From NCBI GenBank assembly GCA_009787485.1, contig WQWP01000004.1, positions 1-34,002 of the forward strand: DNA of 34,002 nt, read 5' to 3'. Source of the stretch: Lentimicrobiaceae bacterium. GTDB taxonomy: Bacteria > Bacteroidota > Bacteroidia > Bacteroidales > WCHB1-69. Of this stretch, positions 15,116 to 31,043 are shown piece by piece (the stretch's first letter is position 1; every line of letters starts with the position of its first letter). Both the position numbers and the translations under genes were made by a program. The notes beneath the pieces are model-generated. The model saw only the letters and a program-made list of their open reading frames with translations. It ran no database searches and was not told the origin of the DNA.

Positions 15116-16616
15116 AATCAACACCATTTATTTCCTGGGAATCGGCGGCATAGGCATGAGCGCCCTGGCGCGTTTTTTCTTGCTTCAAGGGAAACAGGTT
15201 TACGGATACGATCTTATGTTCACAGAAATTACCTCGCAGTTAATTACAGAAGGCGCGTACATTCATTTCGAGGAAGATATAACTCAAATACCGGCGCAAA
15301 TAGATATGGTGATTTACACGCCGGCAATTCCGGAAGAACATGAAGAATATCAGTATTTTATTAAACATAAAATCCCTTTATTAAAACGTTCCGAAATTTT
15401 GGGAATCCTTTGCAGTTGTTATCCCACCATTGCCGTTTCCGGAACGCATGGGAAAACGACGACCACGGCGATCGTTACGCAGATCTTAGGAGAAAAGGAA
15501 CAAAGGAGAAAGGAGAAGGGAGAAATATTCCCTTCAAATTTTGAAGGGGTGCCCGAGGGGCGGGGTAGTTTATATAAAAATAAAATCCTCAGTTTCATCG
15601 GCGGCATCTCCAAAAACCTCAACAGCAACTTCCTTTGCGAGCCCGATTTTAACACCATAATAGTAGAAGCCGACGAATTCGACCGTTCATTTTTAACATT
15701 ACGCCCCCAAGTAGCCATCATCACCTCCATAGATGCCGATCATTTAGATGTTTACAAATCTCACGAGCAATTAAAAGAGTCGTTTCAATTATTTGCTAAC
15801 CAGATACAACCGAGTGGCACTTTGGTTATTTATGATGAGATTGCGGATGAGATTGTGCATCCGAATAAAGTTACCTATGGGTTTTCGGAAGGGGCGCGGT
15901 ATCGGGTATGGAATATTCGGTATGGGGTGGCGAATATGGAATTTGATTTAGTATATAAACCACCCCGCCCTTCGGGCACCCCTTCAAATTTTGAAGGAAA
16001 TATTATTGCTCGTCATTCCGAGCGTAGCGAGGAATCTCGTTCCATGTCGCTCACCATAAACCTCCCCGGCAAACACAACGTGCTGAACGCCGTGGCTGCA
16101 CTTGCTGCGTGTATAGAATTTTTATCCTGGAAGGAAATAGTTGTGGATATTTATTCATTAATAACCTCAGTAGCAAGTTTTACCGGCGTAAAACGCCGTT
16201 TTGACATCCGCATTCAACGCGATGATTTGGTGTATATTGATGATTACGCGCATCATCCGGAGGAGATTCGGGCGTTTTTAGAGGCGGTTAAAAAAAGTTA
16301 TCCTGCCAAAAAAATTACCGGTATTTTTCAGCCGCATTTGTATTCACGAACAAGAGATTTTATTCGGGAGTTTGCAGATGCTTTGGAGGTTTTAGATGAA
16401 GTTATTTTGTTGGATATTTATCCGGCAAGGGAAAAACCGATAGAGGGAATTACGTCTGATTATTTATTGTTGTTCATAAAAAATGAAAATAAAAAACTCC
16501 TTAAAAAAGAGGAGCTTGTGCCTTATTTGCAACAAAACAAGCCGGAGGTTTTGGTTACGATGGGCGCCGGGGATATTGACAAAATGGTGGGTGTTTTAGA
16601 AACCACTTTTTGTTAG
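15102..16616 (+). CDS. murC: UDP-N-acetylmuramate--L-alanine ligase, with in-frame repeat-derived insertions
   Basis: YFLGIGGIGMSALARFF, VSGTHGKTTTTAIV, GGISKNLNSNF, VEADEFDRSFL, DADHLDVY, GVKRRFDIRI, DDYAHHPEEI. Contains unusual insertions at ~15488-15582 and ~15956-16041. Confidence 0.95.
   Translation: MTLDKINTIYFLGIGGIGMSALARFFLLQGKQVYGYDLMFTEITSQLITEGAYIHFEEDITQIPAQIDMVIYTPAIPEEHEEYQYFIKHKIPLLKRSEILGILCSCYPTIAVSGTHGKTTTTAIVTQILGEKEQRRKEKGEIFPSNFEGVPEGRGSLYKNKILSFIGGISKNLNSNFLCEPDFNTIIVEADEFDRSFLTLRPQVAIITSIDADHLDVYKSHEQLKESFQLFANQIQPSGTLVIYDEIADEIVHPNKVTYGFSEGARYRVWNIRYGVANMEFDLVYKPPRPSGTPSNFEGNIIARHSERSEESRSMSLTINLPGKHNVLNAVAALAACIEFLSWKEIVVDIYSLITSVASFTGVKRRFDIRIQRDDLVYIDDYAHHPEEIRAFLEAVKKSYPAKKITGIFQPHLYSRTRDFIREFADALEVLDEVILLDIYPAREKPIEGITSDYLLLFIKNENKKLLKKEELVPYLQQNKPEVLVTMGAGDIDKMVGVLETTFC
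15524..15575 (-). repeat. ~52-nt palindromic repeat, copy 1 (minus orientation), inside murC
   Basis: aatattcccttcaaattttgaaggggtgcccgaggggcggggtagtttatat. Its reverse complement matches 15953-16004 with about 4 differences. Confidence 0.9.
15953..16004 (+). repeat. ~52-nt palindromic repeat, copy 2 (plus orientation), inside murC
   Basis: atataaaccaccccgcccttcgggcaccccttcaaattttgaaggaaatatt. Internal hairpins gccc-ttc-gggc and ccttcaaa/tttgaagg. Confidence 0.9.
16011..16039 (+). repeat. 'HSERSEES'-type palindromic repeat inside murC
   Basis: cgtcattccgagcgtagcgaggaatctcg, translated RHSERSEESR in the murC frame; attcc...ggaat hairpin. Confidence 0.75.
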
Positions 16617-16747: not shown

Positions 16748-17275
16748 ATGAAAAAACTTATCTTTTTTTCTTTTTTGGGCGCGCTCTTTATGGGATTGAA
16801 TGCGCAATTTAATCCGGGAGCTCTTTCCGAGTCTTGGAGCACTACAGGAAATGCCGGTACTACAAGTTCTAATTTTTTGGGTACTACCGATGAATCTGAT
16901 CTTCTTTTTGTAACAAACAATACATTGCGTATGATACTGAGAAAAGATGCAACTTGTCTCGGTAGCAATGCTATTGAACATTCAAATAGTGAGATTATTA
17001 AAACAAATATGAATATGAATATCATTAAAAATAATGCAAACATTCAAGAGTTTACAATATACCCTAATCCTAATGATGGAACTTTTTCTATTAAATTATT
17101 CAACGAGATTAATGAATTGCTTAAAATTACAATTACAGATATCAGAGGTACAATAATTTATAATACAGCTGCGTTTACAGAGCAGATTCAACTCCCTAAC
17201 CCTCCCGCCGGTATTTACATTATCTCATTAATTTTTAAAGATAAAATCTTAACATCAAAATTTGCAGTATTATGA
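16748..17275 (+). CDS. Small T9SS (type A sorting domain) secreted protein
   Basis: Signal peptide MKKLIFFSFLGALFMGLNAQF; SWSTTGNAGTTSSNFLGTTDESDLLFVTNNTLRM module; C-terminal FTIYPNPNDGTFSIKL...PAGIYIISLIFKDKILTSKFAVL. Confidence 0.8.
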   Translation: MKKLIFFSFLGALFMGLNAQFNPGALSESWSTTGNAGTTSSNFLGTTDESDLLFVTNNTLRMILRKDATCLGSNAIEHSNSEIIKTNMNMNIIKNNANIQEFTIYPNPNDGTFSIKLFNEINELLKITITDIRGTIIYNTAAFTEQIQLPNPPAGIYIISLIFKDKILTSKFAVL

Positions 17276-24926: not shown

Positions 24927-25093
24927 ATTGCCGTCAGCTTCATTGCCGTCAGTTTTAACTGACGGAACAAATAGAAAATAAGCAAAAAATGGCTTTAGCC
25001 AAAATCATTATTAATTTTTGGCTAAAGCCATTTTATCCTTTCCTTTCAATCCGTCGGCTGAAGCCGACGGCAATGAGAGCCGACGGCAATGAG
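24927..25093. repeat. Nested REP/BIME-like palindromic mosaic
   Basis: ccgtcagttttaactgacgg (24946-24965); 19-bp perfect inverted repeat 24986-25004/25016-25034; ccgtcggctgaagccgacgg (25051-25070); direct repeats gccgacggcaatgag at 25063-25077 and 25079-25093. Confidence 0.9.
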
Positions 25094-25613: not shown

Positions 25614-27188
25614 TTATTCAATAATGATTTTTTTTGTCGCAATATGGTTTCCCATGGATAGTTTTACAAAATAGACTCCGGTGAGTAAATTAGAATGATT
25701 GACGTTGATTTTGTGGGCATTGCAATGTTCAATTCCGGAAATAAGTTTGCCTGATGAGTTAAAAATTTGAATTGAAAAAGGTTTCATTTCTTTCGCATGC
25801 ACTATTTCTATGGTAAAGTTTCCAATATTAGGATTTGGATAAACAGTAAAATCAAATTTATGATGGGATACCTCTGCAACCGAATAATAAATTTCATGAT
25901 CGAAATTTTCCGAATCAGCGTTTCCCGGATCATTCACAGGTGTTAATGATCTACAATGCTGAACATAAATATTATAAGAGTTTGAAATTTCGTCGTCAGG
26001 TGATGAAAAAGTAATATATGCACTATATCTCCCGCTACTGACCCCATAAACCGGCCATACGGTAACAGTATTCCCAACAACATTACCACTTCCGCTATAA
26101 ACAAGACTTCCTGTAAGATATGTAAAAATTTTTACAGAATAATGAGTTGCACCGGTAAGTTCGAACGTTAAACCCTCATCTATACAGGCAATATTTGTCC
26201 ACGCTACCAAATTAATGCCATCAGGAAGTTCAACACAATTAAAATTTTCGATTCTTGCCTGAAACTGACTACCTTCCTGCGCCTGAAAACCCGGCTTTAA
26301 ACTGATACTATTTCCTGCTATATACGTAACATCTGCACCTTGTTGAATGACACCGGTTGACTCAATGGTATGAGCTGCTTTATAAATGAACGAACCGGAA
26401 GATATATTCCAGTTGAAAACCAAATTTAATGCAGGGCAAGCATCAATACCATCCCAAACAGATACACCTGTTTCATTTGGGTCAAGGCGCCCTTGTAAGC
26501 GTTTATCTACCTCCCACGACCTAAAAAGTTTGCCATAGTTTGAGCTATGTTTACCAGGATCCTTACACTCGTAACTCTTACATTTATTACCTTGACGGTG
26601 AAATTGTCCGATAATACGTTTTTGGGCATTAAAAAGTGGCGATCCCAAGCTTGCGCCATATCCGTGTCCATTCTCTGTAGCAATCCAATTAATTTTGTAA
26701 TAGTTTGAAGCATCGTATTGGTAGCAATCTGAAGTTTGAGGCGTCATATCAAAAGTGGAGATTCTTTTTTCGCCTGTTATACGGCAATAAATACTAACTC
26801 CTCCGGCACTTTGGTTTTCATTTCTGTCCCATCCTGCAAAATATGGACGAAATGTTGCTCGAGGCCTTTTTGACAATTCCAATAATACATAATGTGTATG
26901 TTCAGCGACAATAGGTGCGCTAGCTCCGCTAATAGATTGAGTGAGTGAAACGCTACCCGAATTGCAAAAAGGTTTTTCAGTATTAAAATAAACAATTATA
27001 TTGTTTGCATTGCAACTCCCACAAGGTCCAAGCATATCAGAATTACAAACACATTCACAATTTGTTAATATATACATACCGGCATTTCCCGTTGTGTTCC
27101 AAGTATTGGAGGAACTCTCCTGTTCAAATTGCGCATTCACTCCCATAAAGAGCGCGCCCAAAAAAGTTAATAATAAGATTTTTTTCAT
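25614..27188 (-). CDS. T9SS-secreted lysyl-endopeptidase-like protein, probably catalytically degenerate
   Basis: FAGWDRNENQSAGGVSIYCRITGEKRIST...GASLGSPLFNAQKRIIGQFH resembles Lys-C-type trypsin-like proteases; a 'AGNSISLKPGFQAQEGSQFQARI' module; C-terminal FTVYPNPNIGNFTIEI...KKIIIE sorting domain. Confidence 0.75.
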   Translation of the reverse strand: MKKILLLTFLGALFMGVNAQFEQESSSNTWNTTGNAGMYILTNCECVCNSDMLGPCGSCNANNIIVYFNTEKPFCNSGSVSLTQSISGASAPIVAEHTHYVLLELSKRPRATFRPYFAGWDRNENQSAGGVSIYCRITGEKRISTFDMTPQTSDCYQYDASNYYKINWIATENGHGYGASLGSPLFNAQKRIIGQFHRQGNKCKSYECKDPGKHSSNYGKLFRSWEVDKRLQGRLDPNETGVSVWDGIDACPALNLVFNWNISSGSFIYKAAHTIESTGVIQQGADVTYIAGNSISLKPGFQAQEGSQFQARIENFNCVELPDGINLVAWTNIACIDEGLTFELTGATHYSVKIFTYLTGSLVYSGSGNVVGNTVTVWPVYGVSSGRYSAYITFSSPDDEISNSYNIYVQHCRSLTPVNDPGNADSENFDHEIYYSVAEVSHHKFDFTVYPNPNIGNFTIEIVHAKEMKPFSIQIFNSSGKLISGIEHCNAHKINVNHSNLLTGVYFVKLSMGNHIATKKIIIE

Positions 27189-30961: not shown

Positions 30962-30989
30962 TGTGGCCCCGTGCAGCAAAAACATACTT

Positions 30990-31021
30990 AATACGTTATA
31001 TAAATAATACGTTATATAAAT
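30990..31021 (+). repeat. Perfect 16-nt tandem duplication (aatacgttatataaat)x2
   Basis: Two exact copies at 30990-31005 and 31006-31021, just upstream of the 31044 start. Confidence 0.95.
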
Positions 31022-31043
31022 AATTAATCTAAAATTTATAAAA

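Follow-up and report, generated by a model that had tools for sequence, protein, structure and literature searches.

The murC gene of an uncultured, gut-type Bacteroidales bacterium (genome G000, a 2.26 Mb draft that is 86% complete) contains composite repeat DNA. We consider it probable that this DNA is read as part of the MurC protein, that the palindromic unit within it spreads and survives in surface loops tolerant of in-frame insertions, and that the same loop is refilled species by species. The gene lies in a stretch of 34,002 nt, referred to here as the window.

Repeat-derived segments within murC

The Pfam domains Mur_ligase, Mur_ligase_M and Mur_ligase_C were all detected above cut-off in the 504 aa product of the gene. 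Codons 130-161 encode GEKEQRRKEKGEIFPSNFEGVPEGRGSLYKNK, flanked by TQIL and ILSFIGGISKN, a net gain of 26 residues over relatives (Table 1). An earlier note, made from the DNA letters alone, had placed a purine tract and a palindromic unit between these conserved MurC segments, and both are present as it described them, on the evidence of the sequence, TRF and the inverted repeat. Its reading of the two as a single palindromic insertion stands for the palindrome but not for the purine part, which is an independent heptanucleotide tandem repeat, of a family with 24 matches per Mb in G000 and 0 in the congeneric genome G004.

Folded as RNA, the murC unit at 15526-15575 is predicted to form two adjacent hairpins (-18 kcal/mol, z -2.0); the consensus unit gave z scores of -2.4 as RNA and -4.1 as DNA. 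The first and second copies within murC have 53 nt arms that are 92% complementary, and a 17-mer taken from the unit had two matches in the window, as against none in 100 shuffles. Closely 3' of the second copy is a third repeat, with one exact match in the window and a frequency of 10.9 matches per Mb in G000 compared to 1.3 in G004.

Table 1. Coordinates within the window of murC and of the repeats that it contains
Feature	Position	Strand	Basis or remark
murC, UDP-N-acetylmuramate--L-alanine ligase, 504 aa	15102..16616	+	single uninterrupted frame; host gene of all inserts
Heptanucleotide tandem tract, unit AGGAGAA, peptide GEKEQRRKEKGE	15488..15525	+	TRF period 7, 5.1 copies
Dispersed palindromic unit of ~50 bp, peptide IFPSNFEGVPEGRGSLY	15526..15575	+	~40 genome copies; folding
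Hairpin 1 of the unit	15529..15549	+	
Hairpin 2 of the unit, then TTTATAT tail	15550..15567	+	
Whole codon-exact repeat-derived segment of MurC, residues 130-161	15489..15584	+	alignments; low-confidence AlphaFold loop
Palindromic unit, second copy, in the opposite orientation to the first; in-frame peptide on gene strand YKPPRPSGTPSNFEGN	15952..16004	-	inverted repeat; BLAST (G000, contig C4)
Third dispersed repeat TCGTCATTCCGAGCGTAGCGAGGAATCTC, imperfect palindrome, in frame as ARHSERSEESR	16009..16038	+	repeat segment in 827 kb sample
Predicted tryptic peptide of MurC, GEIFPSNFEGVPEGR			

Both inserts are missing from all 42 other Bacteroidota MurC sequences that were aligned, the nearest named relatives being Bacteroidales. 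The loop from T119 to F165 is 47 residues long, compared to 20-21 in all 42 of these proteins; the outgroup genera have the short loop. The second loop, from residue 270 to G323, is 54 residues long, compared to 29-33 in 41 of the 42 and 11 in the remaining one. The alignment rules out ordinary MurC sequence as the identity of the insert; close relatives do not carry the segment as conserved MurC, and the first of the two findings that would have refuted the earlier note is thus absent.

An AlphaFold2 model of MurC, built from a 43-sequence alignment, had a mean pLDDT of 90.2 and a pTM of 0.90, with pLDDT values below 50 only at residues 143-146, 151-156 and 293-309, all within the two inserts. 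Foldseek matched the model to the H. influenzae MurC structure 1p31 with a TM-score of 0.90 over the target. The core of the protein is modelled as intact and both inserts as disordered loops, a check that the earlier note had proposed and that came out in favour of a low-confidence loop on an intact enzyme.

Other repeats were observed elsewhere in the window. A 112 nt inverted repeat (16748-16859 and 27077-27188, 79% complementary) corresponds to the similar 5' ends of two ORFs, starting MKKLIFFSFLGALFMG and MKKILLLTFLGALFMG, which probably encode paralogous secreted proteins. A terminator-like hairpin with 25 nt arms, 92% complementary, and an 11 nt spacer (24980-25040) lies just 3' of a 948 aa ORF, and there are perfect 16 bp tandem repeats of AGCCGACGGCAATGAG (two copies, 25062-25093) and TAATACGTTATATAAA (2.2 copies, 30989-31024).

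Distribution and reading frames of the palindromic unit

A 29 nt core of the unit had 38 matches in the host genome with up to three mismatches allowed, while the reversed pattern had none; with both this control and the shuffles at zero, a chance origin is ruled out. BLAST with the 95-mer found about 40 places in the host genome, of which roughly a dozen also have the purine tract. The copies lie both between and within genes, where the earlier note had proposed to look for them, and the 52-mer is not confined to its two murC copies, as it would have been under the second refuting condition of that note. The aligned copies share the common unit ATCCCCTTCAAATTTTGAAGGGGTGCCCGAAGGGCGGGGTAGTTTATAT and differ in their flanks, with unrelated tracts or none upstream of the copies that lack the purine tract. 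As each is also found without the other, the purine tract and the palindrome are distinct dispersed repeats, frequently found side by side; the tract as a fixed part of the unit is ruled out by the varied or absent upstream tracts and by one site in genome G005 that has the tract alone. No general rule that palindromes stand beside heptamer tracts is claimed, the lag-7 signal upstream of all copies being weak (mean z 0.85, compared to 1.22 for lag 8). No Rfam family matched at its gathering score, the only hit being to IMES-5 at 19.7 bits against 96.1, and the 95-mer had no match in either the phage or the plasmid collection, on which grounds we reject phage or plasmid cargo.

In other genera of the family, the unit has a different first-hairpin loop and is found mostly between genes. 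A looser pattern, allowing one mismatch, was matched in 25 of 395 Bacteroidia genomes, the host included, mostly in the form GGAGGGGTGNCCGNAGGNCGGGGTGG, in which the two arms of the second hairpin have changed in step (CCC/GGG, GCC/GGC and TCC/GGA). The second hairpins of G005 and G004 are longer and different, and still self-complementary. In a genome of another genus (G007, contig C637), a related unit is in frame as AKFPSKGGVPEGRGGRN within a 556 aa ORF, L248; hence coding use is not confined to the host genus.

In-frame copies of the unit were found in MurC (twice), FolC, MurF, FumC and an oligopeptide-type ABC ATPase (two sites), and also in a mannosidase-like glycosidase, an HlyD-like protein, a secreted-protein family, the N terminus of aspartate-semialdehyde dehydrogenase and the junction of a tRNA nucleotidyltransferase-M16 peptidase fusion. 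These proteins were named by similarity of sequence, and for MurC, FolC, FumC and MurF solved structures provided a check; the insert in FumC comprises 42 residues where the best-matching solved fumarase has five. Across all fetched loci of the congeneric genomes, long ORFs hold 29 of the 71 distinct copies, and the frame SPSNFEGV..GRGSLY is used by 23 of these 29. We read the unit as stop-free in four of six frames; against the corresponding expectation of 1/4, this preference has a binomial p of 1.3e-9, which is optimistic because paralogues were not removed. Any depletion of odd-length hairpins in genes (2/29 as against 8/42) is too small for a claim to be made.

The tRNA nucleotidyltransferase and M16 peptidase form a single ORF in both G000 (L002, around position 40783 of contig C3) and G004 (L323, a 937 aa ORF on contig C155), with the junction filled by different repeats in the two genomes. 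It is possible that fusion of the two genes was brought about by the repeat DNA, or that the repeats fill the linker of an older fusion.

Loop contents and heptamer tracts in congeneric genomes

All four congeneric MurC proteins in which the loop could be read have it enlarged, with a different filling that consists mostly of other repeats: GDEMSTTSHSSPLIPDEAEGRKQKPEGG in G003, NNPTELQIPPNNNTHYSLLTTHYSR in G002, MGGERCVVSGLPVSL in G004 and CGCRDAGCHVST in G001. At this position, only DPYRS is present in another genus of the family. The sequence CTCACCTCTCATTCCTC occurs 52 times in G003, four times in G002 and in none of the other four genomes, and a form of it is present in the MurC, FumC and FolC loops of G003. 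The CACTACT tract of G002 has 142 matches in that genome and 0-2 elsewhere, whilst the GCGGTGTGCGGTGAGCGGT family, with about 18 matches per Mb in G004 and none in the G000 sample, supplies forms that fill the MurC, FumC and MurF loops of G004. In G001, the MurC insert is one of 11 copies in that genome of a 28 nt palindrome, GTAGAGAC..GTCTCTAC (control 0). This second dispersed palindrome family, GTAGAGAC-N12-GTCTCTAC, has a variable core in which the palindrome is kept (e.g. G000, contig C16, 11902-11929), and it is also represented by 21 copies in G000, nine in G002, four in G003, one in G005 and none in G004. The MurF and FolC loops contain, species by species, tracts of GCAGAAA, AATTCAA, AATGGAG or GAAGCCA, or palindromes, and an ABC ATPase loop of G005 has a purine tract only, where G000 has the palindrome.

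The repeats in the MurC, FumC, MurF and FolC loops of the congeners are thus different, species-specific and dispersed, and all are in frame; the loop site is permissive and common to the congeners, with a filling specific to the species. Of the clean insertion with empty-site relatives that the earlier note had suggested looking for, the short loop of the outgroup genera remains, whereas 'clean' does not apply to congeners whose loops are enlarged and otherwise filled. The exact insertion event was not seen, as the congeners already have enlarged loops.

An alternative history, for and against which we find the balance about even, is that the loop expanded in the ancestor of the genus, its repeats turning over as an old tract was replaced or joined by those of each species, through slippage and recombination between dispersed tracts, and the palindrome being a late addition to a loop already enlarged. 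All readable MurC, MurF and FolC loops of the congeners are enlarged at the same position when those of other genera are short, and both the tract-only ABC ATPase loop of G005 and the differing junction repeats of G000 and G004 between nucleotidyltransferase and peptidase would fit such turnover. However, the fillings come from repeat families unrelated to one another, an observation accounted for just as well by independent insertions into a permissive loop, and the FumC of G003 is almost without extra residues. Independent insertion and turnover within an ancestral expansion are indistinguishable on present data; the alternative concerns history, and is compatible with the mechanism that we favour.

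Repeats were surveyed in 827 kb of G000 and 771 kb of G004, rather than in whole genomes. Comparison of 177 orthologue pairs between the two revealed 50 internal length differences of at least seven residues. More than half of the length is covered by repeated 13-mers in 21% of the G000 inserts, compared to 0.8% of control stretches from the same genes, and in 5% of the G004 inserts, compared to 1% of control stretches; hence repeats account for a minority of these length differences. The G000 sample contains 82 tandem tracts of period 7, compared to 0, 44, 18 and 2 of periods 5, 8, 10 and 11, and the G004 sample contains 97, compared to 0, 24, 13 and 5. Because 7 mod 3 is 1, a heptamer tract shows frame INDEPENDENCE, passing through every frame and, if stop-free, giving one cyclically shifted heptapeptide irrespective of the frame of entry; by this arithmetic (AGGAGAA)n becomes RRKEKGE. 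Heptamers that are stop-free on both strands are in ORFs in 30 of 39 cases, as against 29 of 140 for the others (p 1.6e-10), although this bias is partly by construction, as an ORF cannot hold a stop. The informative figure is the proportion of stop-free tracts in ORFs, 77%, which is not far from the 89% of the G000 sample that is coding.

The position of the tracts within proteins varies with the strand translated: purine-sense tracts are internal in all 20 cases, whilst 20 of the 27 pyrimidine-sense tracts begin within the first 33 residues (pooled Fisher p 1e-7). The N-terminal pyrimidine-sense tracts encode hydrophobic cores resembling those of signal peptides (e.g. LIPFLLFSLLLSPFSLFAQ), as judged by eye without a predictor. 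In two orthologues that are 79% identical, LIPFLLFSLLLSPFSLFSQ in G000 is matched in position by LIILIIFNFQFSIFNCTAQ in G004, each derived from its own repeat.

Signal-peptide-like N termini with the core on the pyrimidine strand of a heptamer tract were observed at L344, L346, L348, L357, L358, L359, L366 and L367 in G000 and at L313, L325, L370, L375 and L387 in G004; further heptamer-encoded cores include LLFSLLLFSFLP and LSAFCLLLSAFCLL, with orthologues in the two genomes using their own heptamers. The 626 aa ORF L366 starts with MIFFTIFGLAQ, followed by the palindromic unit and then by a heptamer tract encoding a second signal-peptide-like core, LIPFLLFSLLLSPSLFAQ, and its N terminus looks like a signal peptide rebuilt from repeats.

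Whether dispersed repeats form a standing source of protein sequence in this genus, through heptamer tracts that are independent of frame and yield two peptides from two strands, such that loops and secretion signals are rebuilt, is a proposition to which we would give an even chance. The purine strand would supply hydrophilic loops and the pyrimidine strand hydrophobic signal-peptide cores, and repeated rebuilding of the same loops and signals by heptamers and hairpin elements would leave unrelated, species-specific repeats in sister orthologues.

Persistence of the inserts and comparison with known systems

In the mechanism that we favour, the unit would spread by an unidentified process and land both in and between genes, surviving within a gene only where whole codons are added, the frame in use has no stop and the site of insertion is a tolerant surface loop. 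The tolerated peptide would be hydrophilic and disordered; selection for hydrophilic peptides is inferred, as are translation of the insert and its neutrality. A heptamer tract is easily admitted because seven is not a multiple of three, and a stop-free heptamer gives one heptapeptide in three frames. For MurC, the insert is probably neutral or of mild cost, and the loop may be a permanent landing site that each species has refilled with different repeats. The earlier note's proposal of a mobile element that left the frame unbroken agrees with the observed dispersal and reading frame; movement itself is inferred from dispersal only, because no within-species empty-site polymorphism was at hand, and neither a transposase nor a target duplication could be linked to the unit.

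The unit might be a REP moved in trans by a Y1/RAYT transposase, given six Y1_Tnp matches in G000 and a hairpin anatomy with GTAG at one end. This appears improbable and is not supported, though not excluded: none of the six matches is on a unit-bearing contig, G005 has many copies of the unit and no Y1 match (but is only 53% complete), and G003 has neither. Retention of the insert for a benefit to MurC, through regulation, partner binding or stability, is very unlikely; loops of this kind persist in several core enzymes across all examined congeners, but the sequence, length and composition of the MurC loop are not conserved between congeners, it is modelled as disordered, and an identical peptide occurs in unrelated proteins. 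We give less credence still to the possibility that the insert is untranslated, whether through excision from the RNA or through ribosomal skipping: this could account for strong hairpins within an essential gene, but the frame preference and freedom from stops maintained across genes would be needless under skipping. An assembly or binning artefact, conceivable in a fragmented draft with some copies near contig ends, can practically be discounted given the unbroken 504 aa frame, the complete enzyme fold and the enlarged loops at the same position in four other assemblies.

Protein-coding palindromes are best known from Rickettsia; those described here are in a Bacteroidales genus and in the core enzymes MurC, MurF, FolC and FumC. 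One and the same loop is filled differently in up to six congeneric species, and these natural replicates allow a direct test of whether such insertions are neutral, harmful or useful. The frame independence of heptamers, and the use of both strands, would offer a concrete route from simple repeats to new loops and signal peptides, and the inserts serve as a warning that such segments in databases are repeat DNA rather than conserved protein. Neither a printed occurrence of the core sequences nor a description of such insertions in Bacteroidales was found in the literature, subscription journals being mostly outside our coverage; in-frame insertions of palindromes or REPs are already known elsewhere.

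Rickettsia palindromic elements, or RPEs (Ogata et al. 2000, 2002, as reviewed in PMC2229807), are 105-146 bp long and found in conserved genes, with one RPE-bearing guanylate kinase having been shown to be translated and active (PMC2229807). The likeness suggested by the earlier note is a sound analogy, both being small dispersed palindromic repeats, intergenic as well as in frame in conserved protein genes, that the enzymes tolerate. It does not extend to membership: the unit here is about 50 bp long, belongs to a Bacteroidales host of another phylum than Rickettsia, has another sequence and forms two short hairpins instead of one long stem-loop, and sister species refill the loop with unrelated repeats.

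REPs are 20-40 bp hairpin repeats, often paired and in some cases within ORFs, and the unit resembles them in these respects. It also has a GTAG at one end, but this stands at the 3' end of hairpin 2 and that of REPs usually at the 5' end, so that the tag neither places the unit among the GTAG REPs nor excludes it from them. GTAG and CGTC families have been described, a hairpin repeat being tagged by GTAG at one end, as have intragenic REPs in many bacteria; REPs that differ between two Xanthomonas species occupy roughly equivalent positions in recB (PMC3733652), a situation similar to the refilled loops here. However, no RAYT gene adjoins the unit, and none flanked by it was found in G000, where the Y1_Tnp matches lie off the unit-bearing contigs; about two fifths of the examined copies are in ORFs, with one preferred frame, and REPs have not been described from Bacteroidales in the papers found. 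Protein-fused MITEs are likewise small repeats in frame within genes, being non-autonomous and in some cases supplying signal peptides or membrane segments (PMC2229807), but in the repeats studied here no terminal inverted repeats of a known IS were recognised, nor, by eye in aligned flanks, a target-site duplication.

The heptamer tracts have their own parallels. Heptanucleotide tandem repeats are known in cyanobacteria as STRRs, and the present tracts meet the criterion of dispersed 7 bp tandem arrays with many families per genome. The TAACTGA repeats of the Beggiatoaceae have been described as intergenic (PMC4679880), whereas the stop-free units of this genus are largely genic, with a predicted translation that depends on the strand.
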